Shown here piece after piece: positions 300 through 61,339 of a DNA stretch of 64,000 nt; within the stretch, counting starts at the first letter, position 1; each line of letters opens with the position of its first letter. The notes under the pieces were generated by a model. It was not told the origin of the DNA and did no database searches. It saw only the letters and a list, made by a program, of their open reading frames with translations. The position numbers and the translations under genes are program-made. The stretch comes from Mya arenaria. Lineage: Eukaryota > Mollusca > Bivalvia > Myida > Myidae. The stretch spans positions 36,459,725-36,523,724 of the forward strand of contig NC_069126.1 in the NCBI RefSeq assembly GCF_026914265.1. Reading direction: 5' to 3'.

Positions 300-3200
300 A
301 AGGTTGTAAGTAACGCCGATTCTATGTTTATGTAGCAGAATTAGGACGAATCTGCGGTTATGTAACAGAATAAGGATGCACCTATTGTTATATGACACAC
401 TTAGGACATGTCTGTGGTAAAATAATACACATCGGATGATTGATTGTATGGTTATGTAAAATACATAGGACGATTATGTGGTTATGAATCAGACTAAAGA
501 CGATTATGTGTTTATATAGCAGGACAAGTTTATGTTTATGTGACAGCTAAGGACGATTATGTGTTTATGCAGCAGACTTATGACAATTGTATGGTTATGT
601 AACAGCAAAGGACGATTCGACGGATATGTTACAGACTTAGAACGATTATATGGTTATAAAACAGACTTAAGACGATTTTGTGATTTTGTGGGCTTAGGGC
701 GATTGTATTGCCATATAAAAGGCTAAGGACGATCGTATGGCCATGTAAAGAGCTTAGGACGATTGTATGGCCATGTAAAAGGCTTAGGACGATTGTATGG
801 CCATGTAAAGGGCTTAGGGCGATTGTATGGCCATGTAATAGACATATGACGATTGTAAGGCCATGCAAAATGCGTAGGACGATTGTATGACCATGTAAAA
901 GGCTTAGGACGACTGTATGGCCATGTAATAGACATATGGCGATTGTATGGCCATGTCAAAGGCTTAGGACGATTGTATGGCCATGTAAAAGGCTTAGGAC
1001 GATTGTATGGCCATGTCAAAGGCTAAGGACGATTTTGTGGCCATGTAAAGGGCTTAGGACGATTGTATGGCCATGTCAAAGGCTTAGGACGATTGTATGG
1101 CCATGTCAAAGGCTAAGGACGATTGTATGGCCATGTCAAAGGCTTAGGACGATTGTATGGCCATGTAAAAGGCTAAGGACGATTGTATGGCCATGTCAAA
1201 GGCTTAGGACGATTGTATGGCCATGTAAAAGGCTTAGGACGATTGTATGGCCATGTCAAAAGCTTAGGACGATTGTATGGCCATGTCAAAGGCTAAGGAC
1301 GATTGTATGGCCATGTCAATGGCTTAGGACGATGGTATGGCCATGTAAAGGGCTTAGGGCGATTGTATGGCCATGTCAAAGGCTTAGGACGATTGTATGG
1401 CCATGTAAAGGGCTTAGGACGATTGTATGGCCAAGTCAAAGGCTTAGGGCGATTGTATGGCCATGTCAAGGGCTTAGGACGATTGTATGGCCATGTAAAA
1501 GGCTTAGGGCGATTGCATGGCCATGTAAAAGGCTTAGAACGATTGTATGGCCATGTAAAGGGCTTAGGACGATCGCATGGCCATGTAAAGGGCTTAGGGC
1601 GATTGTTTGGCCATGTAAAAGGTTTAGTAAGATTGTATAGCCATGTAAAAGGCTTAGGACGATTGTATGGCCATGTCAAAGGCTTAGGACGATTGAATGG
1701 CCATGTAATAGTCATATGGCGATTTTATGGCCATGTAATAAACATATGAGGATTGTATGGCCATGTAATAGACATATGACGATTGTATGGCCATGTAATA
1801 GACATATGACGATTGTTTGGCCATGCTATAGACATATGACGATTGTATGGCCATGAAATAAACATATGACGATTGTATGGCCGTGTAAAAGGCTTAGGAC
1901 GATTGTATGGCAATGTAATAAACATATGACGATTGTACGACCATGTTAAAGGCTTTGGACGATTGTATGTCCATGTAAAAGGCTTTGGACGATTGTATGG
2001 CAATGTAAAGGGCTTAGGACAATTGTATGGCCATGTAATAGACATATGACGACTGTATGACCATGTAAAAGGCTTTGGACGATTGTATGGCAATGTAATC
2101 GACATATGACGTTTGTATGGCCATGTAAAGGGCTTTGGGCAATTGTATGGCGATGTAAAAGTCTTAGGACGATTGTATGGCCATGTAAAGGGCTTAGGAC
2201 AATTGTATGGCGATGTAAAAGTCTTAGGACGATTGTATGGCCATGTAAAAGTCTTAGGACGATTGTATGGCAATGTAATCGACATATGACGTTTGTATGG
2301 CCATGTAAAGGGCTTTGGGAAATTGTATGGCCATGTAAAAGTCTTAGGACGATTGTATGGCCATGTAAAGGGCTTTGGGTAATTGTATGGCCATGTAAAA
2401 GTCTTAGGACGATTGTATGGCCATGTAAAGGGCTTAGGACAATTGTATGGCCATGTAAAAGTCTGAGGACGATTGTATGGCCATGTAAAAGTCTTAAGAC
2501 GATTGTATGGCCATGTAAAGGGCTTTGGGCAATTGTATGGCCATGTAAAAGTTTTAGGACGATTGTATGGCCATGTAAAAGTCTTAGGACGTTTGTATGG
2601 CCATGTAAAGGGCTTTGGGCAATTGTATGGCCATGTAAAAGTCTTAGGACGATTGTATGGCCATGTAAAGGGCTTTGGGCAATTGTATGGTCATGTAAAA
2701 GTCTTAGGACGTTTGTATGGCCATGTAAAGGGCTTTGGGCAATTGTATGGCCATGTAAAAGTCTTAGGACGATTGTATGGCCATGTAAAAGGCTTTGGAC
2801 GATTGTATGGCAATGTAATCGACATATGACGTTTGTATGGCCATGTAAAGGGCTATAGGCAATTGTATGGCCATGTAAAAGTCTTAGGACGATTGTATGG
2901 CCATGTAAAGGGCTTAGGACAATTGTATGGCCATGTAAAAGTCTGAGGACGATTGTATGGCCATGTAAAAGTCTTAGGACGATTGTATGGCCATGTAAAA
3001 GTCTTAGGACGTTTGTATGGCCATGTAAAGGGCTTTGGGAAATTGTATGGCCATGTAAAAGTCTTAGGACGATTGTATGGCCATGTAAAGGGCGTTGGGC
3101 AATTGTATGGCAATGTAAAAGGCTTTGGACGATTGTATGGCAATGTAATCGACATATGACGTTTGTATGGCCATGTAAAGGGCTATAGGCAATTGTATGG

Positions 3201-3545
3201 CCATGTTAAAGTCTTAGGACGATTGTATGTCCATGTAAAAGTCTTAGGACGATTGTATGGCCATGTAAAAGTCTTAGGACGATTGTATGACCATGTAAAG
3301 GGCTTAGGACGATTGTATGGCCATGTAAAGGGCTTAGGACGATTGTATAGCCATCTAATAGACATATGACGATTGTATGGCCATGTTATAGACAGATGAC
3401 GATTGTATGGCCATGTTATAGACATATGACGATTGAATGGCCATGTTATAGACATATGACGATTGTATGGCCATGAAATAGACATATGACGATTGTATGG
3501 CCATGTATAGGGCTTAGGGTGATTTTATGGTAATGTAACGGACTA
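300..3545. repeat. 30-bp minisatellite, about 105 units
   Basis: A 30-bp unit repeats for about 3.2 kb. Its core reads gattgtatggccatgtaa and is joined to a variable third such as ggcttaggac, gtcttaggac, ggctttgggc or gacatatgac. Units before about 700 are strongly decayed; those from 900 to 3300 are very uniform. The variants are not random: a unit with gacatatgacgtttg recurs at 2101, 2281, 2821 and 3151, spacings of 180, 540 and 330 bp, all multiples of 30, which indicates multi-unit duplication. Because 30 is divisible by three and the unit lacks stops in several frames, long frames of a 10-residue repeat appear on both strands; I read these as artefacts. Confidence 0.97.
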
Positions 3546-5848
3546 AAATTGATTCTACTGTTATGAAACATGCTCAGAACAATACTGCATATTTCTAAAT
3601 GTAATGTCATAACTCTCCAAATCACAAATATAGCCAAAAGAAAATCTCTCAAAACAATTCGACATTTCAAAAGGAAGACATTCATATAAATAATTTCACT
3701 TTCCGTTCAAACCAAATCAAAAACTATCGACTTAGATTGAAGGACACACAGACTGCAACCGCCCGCTGTCATATTGCATCCCTTTTTTGTCCGTATATTT
3801 TTTCGTTGGCGTCTTAATGTTTTCGTGTGTCACACGTATATGCCATACATTGTGACTTTACTTCATAGAGCAAGGTAATTTTCGAAGCGGTAGTAAACTA
3901 AAAATACGCTGGTGTTAATTCAATGGACTTGTTACTTCACATAGTTGATTAGGGTCATTACAGAAATCTACATGTGATCCTCAATATTATTTTGGCCCCT
4001 GATTCAATTAGATATTTTGGGTCTTCGGCTTGTTTGGTCTTTTGCTTATTTAGTCAGAAACCGTCCATTCAATTGACATTAAACTTCCACACAATGTCAA
4101 AATTAAGCTCGGCAAATCTTTATAATATTCAATAGAAGTTCCCACCATTGATTGACATAGAAAATTAAGTATTTCTTTTGTCATTTGTACACCTTTTTAC
4201 ATATATTCTTAACTCATGCAAATATCGAGCAGACAATATGGTGTTATCTGTATTTTATTGATTTTGATTTTCAGTCCTGAGTTAATTTTACTATTATGGA
4301 CATATTTCTTTTATCATACGTGTAAATAAACTATATATCTCATAGACAATCGGTGTCACAGTCGAACACGTTGTCATACGAACGCATCTGTTGAGAAGTT
4401 TCTAGGTATTTCATTCACGTTTTTCTGTATAAAATGTATATTATAATTCAGACATTTCGGCATCAGGAGTGGATTTTACTTTACTGTGTTTTTCGACGCA
4501 AATATTCGTAAGTGTACAAAAGCTTTGTTAATATTAGAACTATATGCAATCGTCAGACAATCTACCCGCCCGTACACCTGCCTGCGTCTGTCTGTGATAT
4601 AACTTCAAAATTGTGTTCGTCTGTTTGACAAACCTTCGTCCAGTATTAAAATTTTCGCTTAACTAAAATATCTTAATACTTATCTGTCCTCGGTATGGGT
4701 GTTTTTTTTTATGATCGGCCTGATATTCTTACTGTCTTTTCCGTCAGTCGATTTAGCCGCTGATCGTTCGCACGTCTCATGAAATTATCGTTATGTCGAT
4801 TAGTATTTGTAACATATAAATCTCGAATATCATGGCAGGCCTACTGTGCTCTCCGATTTTAAAATCAAGCAAACGGAAAGACAAACTACCAAAAGACGAA
4901 CATTATCAATACTCCTAATTTTCACAGGATGTTTAATAGGAACATCATGTGTAGACATCGGTGTATACAATGTTGTATTGCTCATCCCGATTTTTATGGT
5001 GATGTTTTAAGGAAAATTCGTATTTTTTTTTCAGCAGCTTGTTTGGCAGATAGACTCAATAAATTCCTTGAATTAACGGCAATACTTTAAAAAGTACTAG
5101 CTTTCATTTTTTTTTCATCATGAATTCCTCCTACAAAATATAAGGTTGAATATGGCGTCCTTACATAACTAGACTTTCAGGGCTTTGATTTATGAAAATT
5201 TTGTAGATTCACGTTCTCTTTAAAACCGCTTTTTTTCTGCTGGCTAGGGGTGCCCCAGTGTGTGACGTTCATTTCTGGTCTTTTTATTCAATAATGTTTT
5301 TTCTTTGTTTGTTTTCATACAATGATTCTTTTTTATGAATCTCGATGATCACAGAGTTTTAAACCTTTTATTTGCTAAGGCAGACTGTGTTTGACACTCA
5401 TAGTTTCAAACAATAACTGCATCGTATCTTTGAAAAGTTTGCATTAGGTACTCTGAGTTGTATTTCTTCGTCTGCATAGAGTAGGAATCTCTAATCATTG
5501 AAGTACTTGGGGTTCACGTAATAGTTTACTATCATTTGTTTTATTATTAAATTTCCTGAAGTTAATGTATACTTTCATAAGATTTACCTTTTGCAGTTTT
5601 ACTTTTTACGACTATACCCCTAGCGGAGCTATTGAAAAAGTGTCTTCTTACGGTTGTAAGCGGATCGTGCACGAGAATTTCTATTAATCCCACCTGCCGA
5701 TACATTGTATTTGGAAAGGCGATGATAATAATCTAATGTTTATCTTTCGAAAAACTATTTCTATTTATCTATTGATATATCTGTATGTATTTATTTATGC
5801 ATTTATTGGCTCACTAATATATGCAATGCACTTTTCTTTGTATAAGTC
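3546..5848. other. Intergenic DNA, nothing recognised
   Basis: A+T-rich sequence with homopolymer T runs. I saw no coding trace, RNA gene or clear transposon. A short stretch near 5640 (cttcttacggttgtaag) faintly resembles the arm of the foldback element that follows. Confidence 0.5.
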
Positions 5849-36397: not shown

Positions 36398-36504
36398 ATA
36401 TCAGATAAAAGCCGTCGTCTCGAGCTGACCAGTACGTACTCTTTGCACCTATACCTTCTACAGTAGCACCGCAAGGCCTCCCGAAACTTCCACATATAGC
36501 GCTC

Positions 36505-36740
36505 AGTGCTCCCGGAACACCTCGGCCAGTATCAAACAGAAATGAGCTTGCCGTAGATGGCCGAGTTATTACGATTGACAGTGCGCCCGGAACACCTCGG
36601 CCAGTATCAAACAGAAATGAGCTTGCCGGAGATGGCCGAGTTATTACGATTGTCAGTGCGCCCGGAACACCTCGGCCAGTATCAAACAGAAATGAGCTTG
36701 CCGGAAATGGCCGAGTTATTACGATTGTCAGTGCGCTTTA
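36505..36740. repeat. 75-bp tandem array, about three units
   Basis: Units share cccggaacacctcggccag, tatcaaacagaaatgagc, ttgccggagatggccgag, ttattacgattgtcagtgcg, and are almost identical. A decayed echo (gagagatgaccgaagtgtta) lies near 36908. It follows the last exon of the Ig-like gene by about 100 bp and so probably falls in its 3' UTR or just beyond. Confidence 0.92.
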
Positions 36741-41658: not shown

Positions 41659-44600
41659 CGACGACAAAGTTGACAACCATACATAGCTATATTCATGCTC
41701 GAGCCAGAATGTTCTTGATCTGCGTTGCCCATGTTAAGTCTGCCTGATACATCGAGCACTTTGGCGAATGTACCTGTTCTCGTTTGACGTTACTAATTCA
41801 GCCAATGAAATGCGTTTATATGTTTCGCCAGCCAATACAATTCCTGGCTTTAAGTATAATATGATGCGCCATATTACTTCTTAATTATGCATACCCAAAA
41901 TGCCACATCCCGTTAAATTAACATTTTTTACCAGGACATTGGCCGGAAGTCGCTAGTTCGCGACACCCTGGAGAACTACTCGGCCGCCTCAAACCTAATG
42001 CACAACGAGCGCGTCCGGGAGCTTATGGCCGCCGGAGACACCATCTACCACTTCGGCTTCGGTCAGGCACCATTTCCGCTCATGGACAAGGCCGCCGACC
42101 GTCTTCGGAAGTTTGCAGACCGGAGCGCGTATCTACCAGTTGCTGGTGAGTGTCTCTGTGAGAGTCTACAGGCGATTCCGATTGCGCCCCTTTATATTTT
42201 AATAGCACATGTTCATCAAACATGGCATGTAATGCGATTTTTTATATCCTTCAAAACTGCTATACTCTAATTGAGAAGTAAGTTTATGTCTGTATTTTTC
42301 AGGTATCAAAGAACTAAGGGATGCGATCTGTGACTTCCATAAACTCCATGACGACATAGATCGAAGTGCTGATGACGTCATCGTGGGGCCTGGTAGCAAG
42401 GAGCTCATTTTTCTGCTTATGAACATATTTCATGGAGGTGAGTTATTGACGTCATATAGAGTGAATGCAATTCTCTATAACATTTGTCTGAGTTATGTTG
42501 ATGATCAGCAACAGCTTAGGAAGACGTTGATGATGTAGTTAAGTTTATTATGCAATAATGATGATGATTCTTACAGACGTGCTGGTCATTTCCCCGTCGT
42601 GGACCTCGTATAAACCCCAGGTGCAGCTGTCCGGTCATAAACCGCACGTGATCACCGCGTGCCAAGCAGACGACTGGAAAATCACACCGCAATTAGTCAA
42701 AAATGTAAGTAGAGACGTCCACGCATGTATGACGTCATTATCTTACCAATTATATATTCATGACGCCACATCATGACGAGAGTTTTGAAAGGATATCCAG
42801 GGTAAGAAAAGTCAGTTTCTGCAGCATATCCTTGTTTTCATAGTATTCTCTTTTATATGACCTTTTTTACTGAGATGTCTCCTAAATCAGTGAAAATATA
42901 ATACGAACGCTATATATCAAACAATGTTTTTTATGTACGTATATTCCAGTTTCTTCAAACAAGAGATCTTTCTCCGGTGAAACTGTTGATCTTTAATAAC
43001 CCAGACAACCCAAGTAAGCATGTATAAATTACGTATTTTCTTTAGTGTCATAATAATTCAGCCTAAAATTTGCTCGATTAACAAAATCCAAGCTGCAATT
43101 TATAACGCTATGGTGTAATGTCGTACCATATTTGGGCTTCGCCTCGGACAAAATTGGTGATCGTCCTAGCGAAACGGCTTCTTACTCTGAAAAAGGACTC
43201 TTTTGAAGAAAAACTAGTACCGTATCTATTAGACGGTACACATTACGCACATTATACATTAACAGTAATAATAACTCGGGTAGAGGGTGCTGTAATAATA
43301 ACTCGGGTAGAGGGTGCTATAATAATAACTCGGGTAGAGGGTGCTGTAATAATAACTCGGGTAGAGGGTGCTATAATAATAACTCGGGTAGAGGGTGCTG
43401 TAATAATAACTCGGGTAGAGGGTGCTGTAATAATTACTCGGGTAGAGGGTGCTATAATAATTACTCGGGTAGAGGGTGCTATAATAAAAACTCGGGTAGA
43501 GGGTGCTATAATAATTACTCGGGTAGAGGGTGCTATAATAATTACTCGGGTAGAGGGTGCTATAATAATTACTCGGGTAGAGGGTGCTATAATAATAACT
43601 CGGGTAGAGGGTGCTATAATAATTACTCGGGTAGAGGGTGCTATAATAATAACTCGGGTAGAGGGTGCTTTAATAATTACTCGGGTAGAGGGTGCTATAA
43701 TAATTACTCGGGTAGAGGGTGCTTTAATAATTACTCGGGTAGAGGGTGCTATAATAATTACTCGGGTAGAGGGTGCTATAATAATTACTCGGGTAGAGGG
43801 TGCTATAATAATAACTCGGGTAGAGAGTGCTTTAATAATTACTCGGGTAGAGGGTGCTATAATAATAACTCGGGTAGAGGGTGCTTTAATAATTACTCGG
43901 GTAGAGGGTGCTATAATAATTACTCGGGTAGAGGGTGCTATAATAATTACTCGGGTAGAGGGTGCTATAATAATAACTCGGGTAAAGGGTGCTGTAATAA
44001 TAACTCGGGTAGAGGGTGCTGTAATAATAACTCGGGTAGAGGGTGCTATAATAATAACTCGGGTAGAGGGTGCTATAATAATTACTCGGGTAGAGGGTGC
44101 TATAATAATAACTCGGGTAGAGTGTGCTATAAAAATTACTCGGGTAGAGGGTGCTATAATATTTACTCGGGTAGAGGGTGCTATAATAATTACTCGGGTA
44201 GAGGGTGCTATAATAATTACTCGGGTAGAGGGTGCTATAATAATTACTCGGGTAGAGGGTGCTATAATAATTACTCGGGTAGAGGGTGCTATAAAAATTA
44301 CTCGGGTAGAGGGTGCTATAATAATTACTCGGGTAGAGGGTGCTATAATAATTACTCGGGTAGAGGGTGCTATAATAATAACTCGGGTAGAGGGTGCTAT
44401 AATAATTACTCGGGTAGAGGGTGCTGTAATAATAACTCGGGTATAGGGTGCTATAATAATTACTCGGGTAGAGGGTGCTATAATAATAACTCGGGTAGAG
44501 GGTGCTATCATAATTACTCGGGTAGAGTGTGCTGTAATAATTACTCGGGTAGAGGGTGCTATAATATTTACTCGGGTAGAGGGTGCTATAATAATTACTC

Positions 44601-47600
44601 GGGTAGAGGGTGCTATAATAATTACTCGGGTAGAGGGTGCTTTAATAATTACTCGGGTAGAGGGTGCTATAAAAATTACTCGGGTAGAGGGTGCTATAAT
44701 AATTACTCGGGTAGAGGGTGCTATAATAATTACTCGGGTAGAGGGTGCTATAATAATAACTCGGGTAGAGGGTGCTATAATAATAACTCGGGTAGAGGGT
44801 GCTATAATAATAACTCGGGTAGAGGGTGCTATAATAATTACTCGGGTAGAGGGTGCTATAATAATAACTCGGGTAGAGGGTGCTATAATAATTACTCGGG
44901 TAGAGGGTGCTATAATAATTACTCGGGTAGAGGGTGCTATAATAATTACTCGGGTAGAGGGTGCTATAATAATTACTCGGGTAGAGGGTGCTATAAAAAT
45001 TACTCGGGTAGAGGGTGCTATAATAATAACTCAGGTAGAGGGTGCTGTAATAATAACTCGGGTAGAGGTGCTATAATAATTACTCGGGTAGAGGGTGCTA
45101 TAATAATTACTCGGGTAGAGGGTGCTATAATAATTACTCGGGTAGAGGGTGCTATAATAAAAACTCGGGTAGAGGGTGCTATAATAATTACTCGGGTAGA
45201 GGGTGCTATAATAATAACTCGGGTAGAGGGTGCTATAATAATAACTCGGGTAGAGGGTGCTATAATAATAACTCGGGTAGAGGGTGCTATAATAATAACT
45301 CGGGTAGAGGGTGCTATAATAATAACTCGGGTAGAGGGTGCTATAATAATTACTCGGGTAGAGGGTGCTATAATAATAACTCGGGTAGAGGGTGCTATAA
45401 AAATTACTCGGGTAGAGGGTGCTATAATAATTACTCGGGTAGAGGGTGCTATAATAATAACTCGGGTAGAGGGTGCTATAAAAATTACTCGGGTAGAGGG
45501 TGCTATAATAATTACTCGGGTAGAGGGTGCTATAATAATAACTCGGGTAGAGGGTGCTGTAATAATAACTCGGGTAGAGGTGCTATAATAATTACTCGGG
45601 TAGAGGGTGCTATAATAATTACTCGGGTAGAGGGTGCTATAATAATTACTCGGGTAGAGGGTGCTATAATAATAACTCGGGTAGAGGGTGCTGTAATAAT
45701 AACTCGGGTAGAGGGTGCTATAATAATTACTCGGGTAGAGGGTGCTATAATAATTACTCGGGTAGAGGTGCTATAATAATTACTCGGGTAGAGGGTGCTA
45801 TAATAATTACTCGGGTAGAGGGTGCTATAATAATTACTCGGGTAGAGGGTGCTATAATAATTACTCGGGTAGAGGGTGCTATAATAATTACTCGGGTAGA
45901 GGGTGCTATAATAATTACTCGGGTAGAGGGTGCTATAATAATTACTCGGGTAGAGGGTGCTATAATAATTACTCGGGTAGAGGGTGCTATAAAAATTACT
46001 CGGGTAGAGGGTGCTATAATAATTACTCGGGTAGAGGGTGCTATAATAATTACTCGGGTAGAGGGTGCTATAATAATAACTCGGGTAGAGGGTGCTATAA
46101 TAATTACTCGGGTAGAGGGTGCTGTAATAATAACTCGGGTATAGGGTGCTATAATAATTACTCGGGTAGAGGGTGCTATAATAAAAACTCGGGTAGAGGG
46201 TGCTATCATAATTACTCGGGTAGAGTGTGCTGTAATAATTACTCGGGTAGAGGGTGCTATAATATTTACTCGGGTAGAGGGTGCTATAATAATTACTCGG
46301 GTAGAGGGTGCTATAATAATTACTCGGGTAGAGGGTGCTATAATAATTACTCGGGTAGAGGGTGCTATAAAAATTACTCTGGTAGAGGGTGCTTTAATAA
46401 TTACTCGGGTAGAGGGTGCTATAATAATTACTCGGGTAGAGGGTGCTATAATAATAACTCGGGTAGAGGGTGCTATAATAATTACTCGGGTAGAGGGTGC
46501 TATAATAATAACTCGGGTAGAGGGTGCTATAATAATTACTCGGGTAGAGGGTGCTATAATAATAACTCGGGTAGTGGGTGCTATAATAATTACTCGGGTA
46601 GAGGGTGCTATAATAATTACTCGGGTAGAGGGTGCTATAATAATTACTCGGGTAGAGGGTGCTATAATAATTACTCGGGTAGAGGGTGCTATAATAATTA
46701 CTCGGGTAGAGGGTGCTATAATAATTACTCAGGTAGAGGGTGCTGTAATAATAACTCGGGTAGAGGTGCTATAATAATTACTCGGGTAGAGGGTGCTATA
46801 ATAATTACTCGGGTAGAGGGTGCTATAATAATTACTCGGGTAGAGGGTGCTATAATAATAACTCGGGTAGAGGGTGCTATAATAATTACTCGGGTAGAGG
46901 GTGCTATAATAATAACTCGGGTAGAGGGTGCTATAATAATAACTCGGGTAGAGGGTGCTATAATAATAACTCGGGTAGAGGGTGCTATAATAATAACTCG
47001 GGTAGAGGGTGCTATAATAATAACTCGGGTAGAGGGTGCTATAATAATAACTCGGGTAGAGGGTGCTATAATAATAACTCGGGTAGAGGGTGCTATAAAA
47101 ATTACTCGGGTAGAGGGTGCTATAATAAAAACTCGGGTAGAGGGTGCTATAATAATAACTCGGGTAGAGGGTGCTATAAAAATTACTCGGGTAGAGGGTG
47201 CTATAATAATTACTCGGGTAGAGGGTGCTATAATAATAACTCGGGTAGAGGGTGCTGTAATAATAACTCGGGTAGAGGGTGCTATAATAATTACTCGGGT
47301 AGAGGGTGCTATAATAATTACTCGGGTAGAGGGTGCTATAATAATTACTCGGGTAGAGGGTGCTATAATAATAACTCGGGTAGAGGGTGCTGTAATAATA
47401 ACTCGGGTAGAGGGTGCTATAATAATTACTCGGGTAGAGGGTGCTATAATAATTACTCGGGTAGAGGGTGCTATAATAATTACTCGGGTAGAGGGTGCTA
47501 TAATAATTACTCGGGTAGAGGGTGCTTTAATAATTACTCGGGTAGAGGGTGCTATAATAATTACTCGGGTAGAGGGTGCTGTAATAATAACTCGGGTAGA

Positions 47601-50600
47601 GGGTGCAATAACTATTACTCAGGTAGTTGATGCAGTGACATACATTGGAAGTGGGTGCAGTAGCTATAACATTGGTAGTGGATGCAGTAGCTATTACATT
47701 GGAAGTGGATGAAGTAACTATTACAGCTAATTATTCCAATGCTATATTTATGGTTGTTGACATCAGTTTTGTTTCAGCGGGAACGATGTACAACAAACCA
47801 GAGCTGGAAGCACTGAGGTAGGTGGCTGGTCTCTTTGCTGTGCTTACATTCAGTAAAACTGGAAAAGGAAACAATTCACAAAAAAGAATCACAGAAAACA
47901 TTTTTCGGAAAGAGTATTTTCGAATTTACATGCAAACAGAGGAGCCTTTAATAATTAAGGTGGTTTCAACATTTCAATAGTTAGTATTGTCCTGACGCGT
48001 TTGTTGAAAGATTTTCATGAATTTTTCACTTATGAATAGGACGCTTACAAGAACAACATAATGTAATTTTCTCTTAAACATGGATATTACATTTCTTGTT
48101 TCGTAAGATGTTTGTTTTACAACAAAATATCAGCCAGTCTGAGCTGAGCGGACATTACATTAATTTATTTGGCCTTAAATTGTCTCTTTGGATCCGCTGA
48201 TTTAGATAACACTCACTCGTATAGCACGAACCGAAACTGAGTGCAAATATCTTGAGTTTATTTAAGATACGAAGTACAAACAAGGTAATGGAAAATCCTG
48301 GTTTAATGAAATAACCATACATAGGACGATATGGGCTGACATGGATTTAACCTTTAATGTGCAAAAAAAATCCTTTCGTCTTCATATTATCTATTTTGAA
48401 TGCATTTATATCTTGCTTTATGTAATGAAATGAATTGTAGAGATAGCAAATTGACAATGTAATCTGGTCGTGTTCTTGATTTCATCGTCGCAGACGCGTT
48501 ACAAAATTGAGTCAATCACTGGAGGACATGCTGGTCCATTAATGAGGTCAAAAATATAAAACGTATGGTATAACGCGTCGAAAAAGTACAAATGCATATG
48601 AATTTTAGGATTTAGGAAAAGACCTCAACTATTTTCCGTCGCGATATTGAAAACGACACAATAAAAGACAGCCCACATGGTTTAGAGAATAATTAATTAA
48701 CAGGGGCGGTTACAGGATTTGACGTTAGAGAGGGTGTAACTTATGGGAGTAAGCTTTTGACTTGCACCCCTCCTTCCGAACTGAAACTTATAGGGTTTAA
48801 GTGTTGGCAGAGGATAGGGAGTATTCCCTTAAGATATTTTAATCATTTCTAGTCCGAAATTGTTCATTTTGGGCGTATTAAAAAAAATCTCATATATTGA
48901 ATTAAAAAATAATCGATTTTAGGGGATCCGCTAGTGATTGCTTATCTGAAGTTGCATTGGCTAAAGACATATAGGTTGATTACTTAGTGTATTTATCTTC
49001 ACAGTATTCGCTGCAATGGTGATGAATCTCGACGTACATGTATGAATTTATGTTGTGTTACATAACACATGTAACTTTATGGTCGGCAAGCAATCCAGAA
49101 CTCCCAGAACCGAATCATACTGCAAACCTAAAACTTTCTTTTCCTTTTTCACTATTTTTCTTTTATTGTTTTAGACGTTTAGAATACAAAAAAATAATGC
49201 ATTTTTTATGTTCTTGTAAAAAATCAAAAATGTTTCATATTTGATAACTTCAATACCGCAGCTTATTGGCCTAAATTGTTCTCCATGCCCAAAAAACACA
49301 ACATGTAAGCTAGCATGGGCGGATCCAGGAGTTGACGTGAAAAGGGGTGTAACTTAGGGGCGTAACCTTTTGATTTACGCCCCAAATAAGTTGGTTAAAA
49401 TGTTGGCAGGTGGGTTTTGGGTTTCTCCCACAAGATCATTTTCACAATTTCTAGTCCGAAATGGTGCTTGCTGGGTGTGTTTTATAACTTGTTCCCCTAT
49501 ATTTAAATAAAACGTAAACTTGAACGATTTTACGGGGGCCTGCGTATGATTTAAAATGAAACTTCAGTTTGAATTCATTTACGTTTTAATAAGTATTTGT
49601 CTGGTAATGTACGTTGCCCATCGTCTGTAGAAAATGACGTCACTCTTTTAGCGAGGTGTTCCGATCGAATGGAATACTTGTACTAGCTGACGAGATCTAC
49701 GCGCGACTCACATATGGCGGCAACTTCACTTCCATGGCAAAGGTAATTTGTTTTTCTACTGGGGTACAAAACTATCAAGCGTAGATATGTTTTGTTGTTA
49801 ATACCTCTATAAGTTCAATATATAGAGAAGATACTTCATCCTGCGCACGTCCAAACCTATTCCATATGAGAGGCCATAAATTTGTCCGGCCCATGACTAC
49901 ATTTAAGTGTCTGTTGGGGATTGAATCTTGGACAGCTTTGTAAGACGTGTTGTGTCTTTTGTGGGAACGTACATCGGTTAAAATGGAGTCATGGAGTTAC
50001 TTAAACGACGCTTTTGTTTTATTTGTTTCCAGGTGTACCCGGAAGGAACGATTCTGTGTTCCGGGATGTCCAAGTGGGCCAGTATGGGGGGATGGAGGGT
50101 AAGTGGGCCAGTTTGAGCGGATGGAGGGTTAGAAGGCCAGTATGGAAGGATGAAGGGTAAGTGGGTCAGTATGAGGGGATGGAGGATAAGTGGGCCAGTA
50201 TGCGCGGATGGAGGGTAAGTGGGCCGGTATGCGCGGATGGAGGGTTAGTGGGCCAGTACGGGTGGGGGGAGGGTGAGTGGGTCAGTACGGGTGCATGAAG
50301 GGTGAGTGGGCCAGTATGGGTGGATGGAGGGTAAGTGGGCCAGCATGGGTGGATGGTGGATAAGTGGGCCAGTATGGGTGGATGGAGGGTTAGTGGGCCA
50401 GTATAGGTGGATGAAGGGTAAGTGGGCCAGTATGGGTGGATGAAGGGTAAGTGGGCCAGTATGGGCGGATGGAGGGTTAGTGGGCCAGTAATGGTGGATG
50501 GAGGATAAGTGGGCCAGTATGGGTGGATGGAGGGTAAGTGGGCCAGTATGGGTGGATGGAGGGTAAGTGGGCCAGTATGGGTGGATGGAGGGTAAGTGGG

Positions 50601-53600
50601 CCAGTATGGGTGGATGGCGGGTAAGTGGGCCAGTATGAGCGGATTGAGGGTAAGTGGGCCAGTATGGGTGGATGGAGGGTTAGTGGGCCAGTATGAGCGG
50701 ATGGAGGGTAAGTTGGCCAGTATGCGCGGAACGAGGGTAAGTTGGCCCGTATGAGTGGACGGAGGGTAGGTGGGCCAGTACGGGTGGATGGAGGGTAAGT
50801 GGGCCAGTATGGGTGGATGGAGGGTAAGTGGGCCAGTATGGGTGGATGGAGGGTAAGTGGGCCAGTATGGGTGGATGGAGGGTAAGTGGGCCAGTATGAG
50901 CGGATGAAGGAGGTGGGCATGTATGTGCGGATTGAGAGTAAGCGGGCCAGTATGAGCGGAGGGAGGGTAAGTGGGCCAGTATGGGTGGATGGAGGGTAAG
51001 TGGGCCAGTATGGGTGGATGGAGGGTAAGTGGACCAGTATGGGTGGATGGATGGTAAGTGGGCCAGTATGGGTGGATGGAGGGTAAATGGGCCAGCATGG
51101 GTGGATGGTGGGTAAGTGGGCCAGTATGGGTGGATGGAGGTTAAGCGGACGAGTGTGTGCGGATTGAGTGTAAGTGGGCCAGTATGTGTGGATGTAGGGT
51201 AAGTGGGCCAGTATGGGCGGATGGAGGGTTAGTGGGCCAGTAATGGTGGATGGAGGATAAGTGGGCCAGTATGGGTGGATGGAGGGTCAGTGTTCCAGTA
51301 TGGGTGGATGGAGGGTAAGTGGGCCAGTATGGGTGGATGGAGGGTCAGTGTTCCAGTATGGGTGGATGGAGGGTCAGTTGGCCAGTATGGGTGGATGGAG
51401 GGTCAGTGTTCCAGTATGGGTGGATGGAGGGTCAGTGTTCCAGTATGGGTGGATGGAGGGTAAGTGGGCCAGTATGGGTGGATGGAGGGTAAGTGGGCCA
51501 GTATGGGTGGATGGAGGGTCAGTGTTCCAGTATGGGTGGATGGAGGGTAAGTGGGCCAGTATGGGTGGATGGAGGGTAAGTGGGCCAGTATGGGTGGATG
51601 GAGGGTAAGTGGGCCAGTATGTGTGGATGGAGGGTAAGCGGGCCAGTATGTGCGGATGGGGGGAAGGTTGGCCACTATGGGTGGGTGAAGGTTAAGTGGG
51701 CTGGTACGTGCGGATGGAGGTTAAGCGAACGAGTATGTGCGGATGGAAGTTTGGTGCAATTAGGGTTTGTGGGCCAGTATGCGCGGATGGAGGGTACGAC
51801 TGAATACTTATGTGTTTTATGTTGTCATTTTGCTAAATACACTCTATCCAACTGTGGACTTTCATCCGAGACGTTTCGGATTGGTTAAGAATTTCCTTTA
51901 TTTGAAGCCATGTCAGTAAGGTTTTAAGTTTCATAAGAAATAAAAGTGTTTTTATTATATTTATTTTTTATTTTGTTATACCATAAACATCACTGTATTG
52001 TTTACCTTACAGTTGGGTTACCACATATACCCGCCCGGTCTAGCAGCCTTGAAAGAGGCCGTCCGGAGCGCAGCCAGCCACACATACACGTCTGTTGCTG
52101 CGCCCATGCAGTACGCCATGACTGAGGTACGTTTGCCTTTAATATCCATCCAACGTTTGTCAGAATGGTTCAAAACTGCGTTTTGAGACTAATTATATAA
52201 TCATAATATCATTCTGTTTTACTCTTTTTATTCACGTTAATTAATGATATATTCAGATCGTTATTCTATTTATTTTGATGTCCGTCCAGGTTCTACAGGA
52301 CACAGAAACCTGTCGACAATATCAGCAACACACGACCCGCATCATGGCCGCCGTCGCCAAATACTGCCATAGGTCTGCTGTTTGTTTAATTCACGTTCCA
52401 TGTAACGCCTGTCTTGCCACCATCTCTGTTGTTTTCAATGGTTTGCAACGAAGCCTGTAACATCGTATGTGTCGGTCTTCCAGGCAGATAATACGACTCA
52501 CTTATGTACATAATAATAATAATCCAAGTATTCTAAAACAAACAAAAAAATATCATGAAAAGGTAATCAAGGTCGGTATTCATAAAACATTCTTAGTTAA
52601 GTCAATTTCCTAGTATTTTTTTATAAAATATTATTTCCGTTTTAATTTGTTTCGAGTATTATGAAAATAAAGTACTTTTGACATTATTAAATGATGATGA
52701 TACATTTCACTTAGGAAAATGACTTAAGTAAAGAAATGGCTTAAGATGTTTTATGAATACCGCGATCCTGGTAACACAAGAATCACTTTGTGCACTTACA
52801 GGGAGGCATGTCTCCACAATTTAAGCGATTCAATAGATCTTCTACCAGATCCTATGTGCCATGAAGGTATTTTAATTACGCGGTTCATTATTGGAAACGA
52901 TAAAAACTCGAACGCGAATTTTCAGTGAGCTTACTGCGGTCGGGGTGACGGCCGTGCAGCCTAAAGGCGGATACTACATTTTCCCCAACTTCGAGGTGAT
53001 TAGGGAGCAGCTGAGGCGTCGTGACGTCACTTCCTGTGAGCAGATGGTCAACACCATCTTCTGCGAAACAGCGGTCTCGGTGAGTAATCGAGAATAATTG
53101 TTTTCTTTAAGGGGGCAACATCGGTTATTGATATTAGGATATTAAACATAACTGAATGGATGACTTAAATTATAAATATATATCAACACTTTCTATGCAA
53201 ATCTAGTACTAATCAAAGCTACGATTTGATCTTATTAGTTTGACCTGCGAGACGAGGATAACAAATCTATATTTTCTAAATACGTAAACCAGTAAAAATA
53301 GGAATGAAACTATGAAAGTAGTCAAGGCGTGCATACATCTAGCCGATCTGTCCTTAGGGTAAAAAATCGTGTTCACAACTCTGTCCCGACATTTCTGCAG
53401 CTGATGGCCGGTGGCCCTGGATTCCTACGACCGGAAGACGAGTTGACGGTGCGGTTGTGTTTCGTTCATTTTGACGGAGCGAAGGCGCTTGCAGAAAGCG
53501 AGCGTCTAGGTCTGGAGCGCCCCCTACCGGACAACTTTGTTCACACGCATTGTACTACCGTATACGAGGGCATTCAGGTAGGGCACCATGCAGCATGTTT

Positions 53601-54041
53601 TTAGGGGTGCAAGAAGGTTTTGAATGATTTCAGATAAAGAAGTATTTAGAACCATTTTGCATCAGTCCTTGTAAACATGTAAGTGTTATCCAATCACCAA
53701 ATCAAAGCTCGGGTGTTAACGTTAAAAATAATTTATGATCGACATTCAGTGTTTTCAAAGAATTTTTTGAATAAATACCATGAAATACTTGTTTAAATAT
53801 GTGGTATTTAAATGCCTTATCAAGTTTATTTACATTAATGTTTGAATACTTTTTATAATTCATATATATTTAAAAAAACTTAATTGAAAATATTCGAGAT
53901 CAGGCAGTCACTATATATGAAAATGAAGAACAGACATTTAGATCCACGTTGCACTTTTTCAAAAACATTGGTGAGAAGATTTCTGTGATTTATTATTTTC
54001 AGAGACTGGTAGACTGGGTAAAGAAGTTGCTGTCGGAGTAA
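40718..54041 (+). CDS. Class I PLP-dependent aminotransferase, complete, 438 aa
   Basis: Thirteen exons with consistent phases: 40718-40732, 41935-42145, 42303-42437, 42577-42704, 42950-43013, 47778-47817, 49652-49742, 50033-50098, 52013-52126, 52290-52372, 52926-53079, 53401-53577, 54003-54041. The enzyme moves an amino group between an amino acid and a 2-oxo acid using pyridoxal phosphate. Family landmarks: VGPGSKE (cofactor phosphate loop, 103-109), NNPDNPTG (Asn183), LADEIY (Asp211, Tyr214), SGMSKWASMGGWR with the Schiff-base Lys242 and Arg250, GGYYIFPNF, and Arg385 in TVRLCF as the likely carboxylate-binding arginine. No targeting peptide is visible, so cytosolic. It resembles the AspC/aromatic aminotransferase branch; the substrate cannot be settled here. 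Introns 5 and 8 hold 4.5-kb and 1.7-kb minisatellites, the latter grown from the Lys242 exon itself. A duplicated first exon gives a second start. Confidence 0.93.
40884..40898 (+). CDS. Alternative first coding exon (MTLQI) of the aminotransferase
   Basis: Downstream duplicate of the first exon: ATG plus four codons, ending in phase 0 at a GTAAGT donor, and so able to splice to the exon at 41935 exactly as the upstream copy does. It differs by one residue (Thr for Ala at position 2). Confidence 0.6.
41605..41661. repeat. (CAC)n/(CAA)n microsatellite
   Basis: Trinucleotide tract changing from cac to aac repeats in the first intron of the aminotransferase gene. Confidence 0.95.
43129..43227. 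mobile_element. Solo half of the foldback MITE
   Basis: ttcgcctcggacaaaattgg, tcgtcctagcgaaacggctt, and an end with taccgtatct match one arm of the palindromic element at 5849-6030; the other arm is missing. It lies in intron 5 of the aminotransferase gene, immediately before the 27-bp array. Confidence 0.75.
43255..47728. repeat. 27-bp minisatellite, about 165 units, in intron 5
   Basis: The unit is ataataattactcgggt plus agagggtgct, with a common variant aataataac and rarer ones (aaaa, ttta, gtaa). It fills most of the 4.8-kb intron between the exons encoding NNPDNP and TGTMY. Four 26-bp units lacking one g (near 45065, 45575, 45763, 46764) break the 27-bp register. Rare variants recur 1698 bp apart (tgctatcata at 44503 and 46201; actcaggtag at about 45029 and 46727), which equals 63 units minus the three single-base losses between them: a large internal duplication. 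The 3' edge (47605-47720) is decayed. Long frames on both strands are artefacts of a stop-free unit. Confidence 0.97.
48701..48936. mobile_element. Non-autonomous hAT-like element, copy 1
   Basis: Begins caggggcggttacaggattt and ends ggggatccgctagtg, imperfect inverted ends of the CAGGGGCGGATCC type known for hAT-derived MITEs. The interior has ctagtccgaaattgttcatt, shared with the second copy 610 bp downstream. No coding capacity and no clear 8-bp target duplication. Lies in intron 6 of the aminotransferase gene. Confidence 0.6.
49314..49547. mobile_element. Non-autonomous hAT-like element, copy 2
   Basis: Begins catgggcggatccaggag, shares ggggtgtaactta, ttttgattt-acgcccc and ctagtccgaaatggtgctt with copy 1, and ends near gggggcctgcgtatg. 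Same orientation and same intron as copy 1; both are diverged, so insertion was not recent. Confidence 0.6.
50072..51800. repeat. 29-bp minisatellite derived from exon 8 and its splice donor
   Basis: The unit is aagtgggccagtatgggt then ggatggagg then gt, about 59 copies. Its first copy is the last 27 coding bases of exon 8 of the aminotransferase gene (codons for KWASMGGWR) plus the GT of the real 5' splice site at 50099; the next units follow with no gap. About 29 intronic units keep the exact donor GTAAGT after GGAGG; others have gttagt, gtcagt or ataagt. Since 29 is not a multiple of three, the same peptide reappears every 29 codons in each frame. G runs make the strand G-quadruplex-prone. 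Segments such as the taatggtgg variant (near 50490 and 51242) show multi-unit duplication. Confidence 0.96.
52574..52762. mobile_element. Palindromic MITE, about 190 bp, in an intron
   Basis: Left end cggtattcataaaacattct, then tagttaagtcaatttccta; right end has the reverse complements (taggaaaatgacttaagta, ttaagatgttttatgaatac, then cg). Only the middle 80 bases are unpaired. No coding capacity. It lies between exons 10 and 11 of the aminotransferase gene. Confidence 0.82.
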
Positions 54042-54239
54042 AAACCAGTAATTTACTCAAACAGTCCAGTTGGGGCGAAGCGGAGCTGACAAAACCTTGT
54101 ATTTAATCAATAATATACGACCATCAACACCATTCAATTTTCTTTAACAAATTTATGTCTTGTATGTTGCAGCCTCCCATGTGCTCGCTGTGACGTAGTT
54201 TATTATTGTTGATGGTTGTGAATTTTAGATAAATTTCTA

Positions 54240-60020: not shown

Positions 60021-60850
60021 CTATCGTTAATTAAAGCAATAAATCACATACTTATTTTTCCCATAATAAAATCTTCAAAGTTTACTGAAGTTGTGCTGTT
60101 GCAAAATTCAAAAGTAGTTTATTTAGAAATTTACGCGTATTGAATAATATTTCAAAAGCAGTTGAATTATTCTTGAAATAATAATAATATTAATTGAAAA
60201 TATAATTATCAGAACGACATGCAAAACCATGTAAGATTCTTGGTATATACGAGTTTAAGTAGGTACAGGTCTTATAAATCGTTTCTGTTTAGTTTAAGCA
60301 ACAATTCTTAATTTTAATACGTAAATGATCTTTATTAAAGGCAGTGAAGGGCGCTTGTAAAGTGGTCGCAATACGAGGATTTCAAAACACTATAAACGTT
60401 AATGATTTTCTTTATTTGTATACTATCAAATGCCTTTCTAATGTCAATGAAAAGTCATAATCAGTCACATGGCCTGAGGGGTTTACACGTTCTTCCTTGA
60501 ATCAGTCAATAACATATTAACTGGGACAAATTATATCTTAGATAAAATATTTTACGCACTAGTTGAAAATAAACGTGATTAAAAACAACTGATTATAGTG
60601 GGTATTTTTACATAAATATTCTGCTTTACCGGTTAAGTCTAATAATCGACCTAAGAAAAACATACTACTTTTTGTTTGTTTTTACATTCAACATATGCTT
60701 TTGAATCTTGGTGTATAGCAATGCTAATATGATGGTGCCATCCCTTGAAAAGGCTTTTCTAGTGGTTATATAAAAATACGAGACCAAATGCATAGGGTAA
60801 ATATTTTGGAGTGAAATTGAAGGGGCAGAAGCTATATAGGAACAAAGCAA
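60021..60850. other. Upstream side of the lectin gene, nothing recognised
   Basis: A phase-1 exon with a signal peptide is expected somewhere upstream on the minus strand, but none could be supported in this A+T-rich stretch. Confidence 0.4.
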
Positions 60851-61339
60851 GAGACAAGTCACAATGTATATACAGGTAACGTCGTGTTAGAGACGAGTCA
60901 CAATGTATATACAGGTAACGTCGTGTTAGAGACGAGTCACAATGTATATACAGGTAACGTCGTGCTAGAGACGAGTCACAATGTATATACAGGTAACGTC
61001 GTGCTAGAGACAAGTCACAATGTATATACAGGTAACGTCGTGCTAGAGACAAGTCACAGTGTATATACAGGTAACGTCGTGCTAGAGACAAGTCACAGCG
61101 TATATACAGGTAACGTCGTGCTAGAGACAAGTCACAGCGTATATACAGGTAACGTCGTGTTAGAGACAAGGTAACGTCGTGCTAGAGACAAGTCACAATG
61201 TATATACAGGTAACGTCGTGCTAGAGACAAGTCACAGCGTATATACAGGTAACGTCGTGCTAGAGACAAGTCACAGCGTATATACAGGTAACGTCGTGCT
61301 AGAGACAAGTCACAGCGTATATACAGGTAACGTCGTGTT
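60851..61339. repeat. 39-bp minisatellite, about 12 units
   Basis: Unit: gagacaagtcacaatgtat, atacaggtaacgtcgtgcta. Units are nearly identical, with gtt/gct, acg/aca and aatg/agcg changes in blocks; one unit near 61165 has lost its middle. Each unit carries cag followed by gtaacg, a serviceable 5' splice-site sequence. The 13-residue repeat frame is an artefact. Confidence 0.97.

Follow-up and report, generated by a model that had tools for sequence, protein, structure and literature searches.

An aminotransferase gene of the bivalve Mya arenaria carries, in one of its introns, a 29-bp minisatellite whose first unit is the end of the preceding coding exon together with the GT of its donor site. 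The gene lies on the forward strand of a 64,000-nucleotide stretch (RefSeq assembly GCF_026914265.1, contig NC_069126.1, positions 36,459,725 to 36,523,724), which we call the window and number from its first letter. To judge from its sequence, the array is a boundary minisatellite of the 'mirage' type, in that it spans an exon-intron boundary and its units carry copies of the donor. We consider it probable that it arose by tandem duplication in place over the exon/donor boundary, followed by later expansion, and that the exon-proximal donor is still used.

An exon end and its donor form the first unit of the array

Segmentation places the array at 50072-51795 and divides it into 59 units, the copy count already given by a first-pass annotation of this DNA, while Tandem Repeats Finder (TRF) reports a period of 29 with 57.9 copies and 86% matches over 50072-51747. 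The annotation had also described the array as gapless and set its end at 51800. Most units (54 of 59) are indeed 29 bp long, but the remaining five measure 23, 27, 28, 28 and 30 bp, a further 16 bp of irregular sequence lie just 5′ of the last unit, and the right edge falls at 51795, directly after GGAGGGT, with unique sequence from 51796. On the left, the repeat begins precisely with the opening base of a Lys codon (AAG), at 50072, and the exon sequence upstream of it bears no resemblance to the tail of the unit. Both edges share one register, at the Lys codon on the left and after GGAGGGT on the right, as expected if one segment had been duplicated in place.

The first unit (50072-50100, + strand) consists of the 27-nt end of the exon at 50033-50098 (bases 50072-50098) and the donor GT (50099-50100). 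It is identical at 28 of 29 positions to the array consensus, which itself is ambiguous at position 18 (K), and 58 further units (50101-51795, +) make up the intronic part of the minisatellite. A search for the unit allowing up to three mismatches returned 43 matches in the window, every one of them within the array, and none in 100 shuffles. The exon copy encodes SK....GGWR, which is conserved with bacterial aspartate aminotransferases. Because this copy is held by the protein constraint of the aminotransferase, we read the direction of copying as from exon to array and not the reverse, in agreement with the proposal of the annotation that exon end and donor had seeded the repeat.

Within the array, units 54-57 show a divergence of 5 to 8 differences to the consensus, and an exact 92-bp block occurs twice at an offset of 752 bp, which is not a multiple of 29; this recurrence is a sign of ordinary block duplication. 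No tested lag exceeded 0.885 identity in a search for higher-order periodicity that assumes no indels, and no inverted repeats of at least 12 bp were found in 49950-51900. An antisense open frame of 324 aa (50166-51140, minus strand) spans the array. The antisense of the 29-bp consensus is free of stops in all three frames, which explains the open frame, and no gene evidence accompanies it.

The host gene is an intact-looking class I/II aminotransferase

Assembly and translation, together with matches to PF00155 and to the PDB, define 12 recognised coding exons of the host gene at 41935-54042 (+). Those of the 5′ half lie at 41935-42145, 42303-42437, 42577-42704, 42950-43013, 47778-47817 and 49652-49742, and those of the 3′ half at 50033-50098, 52013-52126, 52290-52372, 52926-53079, 53401-53577 and 54003-54042. 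They join as a single open frame of 433 residues with its stop at 54042; the 5′ start of the gene lies upstream of 41935. An extra coding exon at 52802-52866 was dropped, as it breaks the frame, whereas 52372 joins 52926 in frame. The protein matches PF00155 over residues 43-336 of 433 (E 1.4e-50, 173 bits against a cut-off of 19.7), with the lysine motif inside this match, and its best PDB match is 1bjw (E 1.7e-36), the closest solved chains being bacterial-type aspartate aminotransferases. We read the gene as an intact-looking class I/II aminotransferase. The assignment stops at this class and names no substrate, because none of the best 25 of the 67 NCBIfam families found for the protein attains its curated cut-off.

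The 66-nt exon at 50033-50098 (+, phase 0/0, acceptor TTTCCAG, donor GTAAGT) joins its neighbours in frame and encodes VYPEGTILCSGMSKWASMGGWR, with the conserved lysine motif. Its lysine, aligned to 1bjw, is what we take to be the lysine that binds pyridoxal phosphate (PLP). The alignment runs gapless across the exon junction (GWR/LGY of the host against GWRIGY), and the exon end is therefore fixed at 50098 independently of RNA.

Downstream units carry donor copies that would lead to a premature stop

The authentic 5′ splice site, GTAAGT at 50099-50104 (+), forms a duplex of -11.1 kcal/mol with the 5′ end of U1. Its positions +3 to +6 (AAGT) open the second unit and are copied from the Lys-Trp codons. 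With the true donor included, 50 of the 59 unit junctions keep GT, 30 read GTAAGT and 20 read GGAGG/GTAAGT; downstream of it, GT is kept at 49 of 58 junctions and GTAAGT at 29. This bears out the view that there are donor-like sites in the downstream copies, as well as the number of about 29 GTAAGT units in the annotation; GGAGG, which had been claimed to precede them all, stands before only 19. At 28 of the 59 junctions, again counting the true donor, a GT is combined with U1 pairing at least as strong as that of the true donor.

Read-through from the exon runs into an in-frame TGA (50114-50116, +) in the first intronic unit, as had been noted, five codons after the exon ends. Since this TGA precedes all 49 downstream GTs and is common to them, each decoy is a premature-stop (poison) site, and the earlier remark that the frame could survive in multiples of three units has no bearing on this allele. 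The array holds no acceptor-like sites, the pyrimidine content before an AG never exceeding 47%, against 71% at the true acceptor; the copies can therefore only lengthen the 66-nt exon. There is no sign that the decoys have been either purged or maintained, as far as substitution patterns can tell: over 53 intronic units, donor columns carry a mean of 4.3 changes per column against 3.8 for the others (p 0.89), and the intactness of GTAAGT shows no correlation with how far a unit lies from the exon (rho -0.13, p 0.34).

The duplication may have strengthened the donor

The unique 3′ part of the intron (51796-52012, +, up to the acceptor CTTACAG) starts with ACGACTGAATAC, a candidate remnant of the intron start before the duplication (GTACGA), and the candidate ancestral, array-free intron start would read like GTACGACTG. 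The intron measures 1914 nt with the array and 219 nt if the array is removed. For pairing with U1, the candidate earlier donor GTACGA gives -5.0 kcal/mol and GTAAGT -11.1; as the other donors of the host gene span -4.2 to -11.5 kcal/mol, this value is not out of line. Because the AAGT at +3 to +6 is copied from the Lys-Trp codons and the sequence past the last unit suggests GTACGA, we propose, tentatively and with somewhat more doubt than confidence, that the duplication strengthened the donor, the exon-derived AAGT having replaced the GTACGA context.

A probable tandem duplication in place and its alternatives

The series of events that we favour would begin with the tandem duplication of the 29-bp segment (27 nt of the exon end and the donor GT). 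Slippage and unequal exchange, the ordinary turnover of minisatellites, would then have expanded it to about 59 units. Being intronic, the array would most likely be tolerated. The exon-proximal donor, which is the nearest to the acceptor defining the 66-nt exon, would be the one used, with exon definition favouring the first donor, and transcripts from the occasional use of a nearby copy would contain a premature stop and be degraded. A precedent for such harmlessness comes from amphioxus, where excerpts of two papers say that the mirages of Adh3 and of globin genes leave regular splicing intact (PMC3087553, PMC3902484).

Four points weigh against this scenario. Its basis is the DNA of a single allele from one assembly. 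Units 54-57 and the 16 irregular bp have decayed, hence GTACGA is possibly a decayed GTAAGT. In duplicate-donor experiments a strong downstream copy can outcompete the upstream one, and on that basis decoy use would be expected and not tolerance. Finally, an article of 2001 by Lievers reportedly ties, by its title, the variable number of tandem repeats (VNTR) of the human CBS gene, or its longer alleles, to reduced CBS activity.

If the decoys competed with the true donor, the array would act as a copy-number-dependent attenuator, in which longer arrays give more premature stop and decay and the output of the gene is set by length. The 28 strong junctions, the stop, five codons past the exon, that use of any downstream GT junction would include, and the association of the human CBS VNTR with reduced activity (Lievers 2001, title) all argue for such a role. 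However, it too is built on the DNA sequence of one allele, neither the donor positions nor their distance from the exon bear a selection signal, and the amphioxus mirages are reported without disturbance of splicing. We regard this role as unlikely. Titration of U1 small nuclear ribonucleoprotein by the array, another suggestion of the annotation, is implausible because few nuclear RNAs are as abundant as U1 and a single intron offers some 30 sites.

Even less probable, in our judgement, is a function of the G-runs in the pre-mRNA, with GGG acting as intronic splicing enhancers or in G-quadruplexes that help the first donor. The unit is G-rich, as had been pointed out: G makes up 48.7% of the array, four overlapping GGG occur in the first 70 intron nt, and G4Hunter scores reach at least 1.2 in 19.9% of the 25-nt windows of the array against 0.3% elsewhere in the 64-kb window. 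GGG triplets close to donors can enhance splicing. These G-runs come from coding sequence and need no function, however; the strict pattern (G3, loops of 1-7) has only 9 starts, or 68 with loops to 12, and RNA folding of the exon and the first three further units is not above that of shuffles (z 0.57).

An independent array, born in the intron and resembling the exon by chance or invading its end, would fit a genome in which donor-bearing arrays are plentiful (counts below) and a window in which 13 larger arrays, picked from the TRF list at a score of at least 300, take up 26.5% of the sequence, but we reject it as scarcely credible, since the 27 bases of the exon end encode conserved protein sequence, the shuffles gave no unit match, and GTRAGT occurs in only 1 of these 13 arrays.

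Donor-bearing arrays elsewhere in the genome and the window

Genome scans covered 1,216,080,610 bases in 18 contigs. Three AGGTAAGT at 23-53 bp spacing occurred 1975 times, and 1240 times in reversed form. For three GGTAAGT with a period of 28-30 bp the counts were 603 and, in the reversed control, 481; the matches are clustered, with many per array, and the ratios are thus weak evidence. A donor within a tandem array is common in this genome, and what sets the 29-bp array apart is its identity to a conserved coding exon end. Among seven arrays checked around the host gene, it alone has exon contact.

From the matches listed first in the two pattern scans (about 100 each) we surveyed 27 regions (19 and 8), leaving out a place near 45175510 on contig C1, two near-duplicate arrays on C3 and simple-repeat places on C4. 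Some of the regions are copies of one another (L043, L044 and L050; L045 and L049; L046 and L048), so that they represent fewer than 27 independent arrays. A loose open-frame test was passed by 8 of the 27, and also by the positive control, the window's own array. L047 (C1:39073500-39078500) is the only one of the eight in which repeated exon-side sequence goes with a long open frame. At 2472-3901 of this region, a 190-nt open exon ends at GTAAGT and is followed by a 52-bp unit repeated 21.6 times, which copies the last ~42 exon nt and ~10 intron nt. L047 may be a second boundary minisatellite, though a weaker candidate: its exon gives a best Pfam E of 0.077, below cut-off, and no PDB match, and three neighbouring frames lack significant support. 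In L059 (C2:45208800-45213800), a short possible exon end is possibly repeated at 42 bp around position 2000. In L051 and L067 an open frame is followed by an array that opens with a donor-like GT, without clear exon-side copies; the other four regions were unconvincing on reading. That exon-donor boundaries repeatedly seed minisatellites here (our array, L047 and possibly L059), that duplication improves the donor, and that a frame-breaking array is a length-tunable poison-splicing element setting enzyme output is a broader conjecture that strikes us as improbable.

Within the window, a 27-bp array of ~162 copies and related units (43266-47725) fills most of another intron of the host gene and stops 53 bp before the exon at 47778. 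A 39-bp array at 60850-61339 has 13 donor-like AGGTAA sites (ACAG/GTAACG), and only its flanks were read for an exon. At 36503-36736, a 75-bp unit (25 codons) is repeated 3.1 times. One of its frames resembles protein (SVRPEHLGQYQTEMSLPEMAELLRL) and is interrupted by a single stop, in the first copy. Among the highest-ranking candidates scored in its own genome, we found no close paralog of the host gene: of 13 matches, 10 were the host's own exons and the non-self ones were weak (one on C14 with E 0.0025, two on C8 with E 0.6). Relatives sought in prokaryotic contigs gave 19 pattern matches, none of them confirmed, and the window holds no tRNA genes.

Comparison with known boundary repeats

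The annotation knew of no described case of this kind, but precedents exist in the amphioxus mirages, the human CBS VNTR and the human IFI6 minisatellite, and by this comparison our array is a large example of a rare, previously described kind of repeat. The comparisons that follow draw on excerpts of the papers cited. Mirages are minisatellite-like tandem duplications of an exon-intron boundary, described in amphioxus Adh3 and in the globins BflGb6 and BflGb9 (PMC3087553), and also in troponin C and PGBD5 (PMC3902484). As in Mya, the boundary is spanned and many units carry splice signals, and the unit lengths in Adh3 (10-72 bp) include 29. The phylum differs, however, the BflGb6 haplotypes have 3 and 6 units against 59 here, and the Mya array is known from sequence alone. 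The 31-bp VNTR of CBS, named c.1444_1467+7(16_21) (PMC2630376), likewise has a unit made of an exon end and an intron start (24+7 by the CBS name, 27+2 here), and both genes encode PLP enzymes. It has 16-21 units, polymorphism and a reported association with activity, whereas the Mya array is known from one assembly.

The human IFI6 (6-16) minisatellite has multiple splice donors, two downstream repeat units serving as such (PMC4526556, citing Turri 1995). In Mya, a 29-bp unit and the in-frame TGA turn every copy into a poison site. The IFI6 unit, in contrast, measures 12 bp, keeps the frame and gives protein isoforms. Boundary-crossing tandem duplication also supplies splice signals in the Rogers model of intron gain, through duplication of AGGT-containing segments, as in the RNA-dependent RNA polymerase (RdRp) of potato (PMC4974935); here no new intron would be made, and an existing one would grow from 219 to 1914 nt. 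Intron 3 of an abalone TSSK1-like gene holds a polymorphic 27-bp minisatellite, with 62 copies shown and a length that varies among individuals (PMC6905558). It resembles ours as an intronic minisatellite of a mollusc with similar unit length and copy number, but the excerpt mentions no adjoining or copied exon end. Variable tandem repeats at exon-intron boundaries have been discussed for human duplicated genes (PMC2812944), and no mollusc boundary array of such kind appeared among the titles listed by keyword searches of one open-access library.

Boundary minisatellites, described from lancelets and two human genes, are thereby extended to a mollusc. Distinctive of the Mya array are its high copy number and its frame-breaking unit, by which every copy becomes a premature-stop donor. 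It may serve as a natural experiment in which the spliceosome has to choose one of some thirty near-identical donors, and as a model for the birth of minisatellites at gene boundaries.

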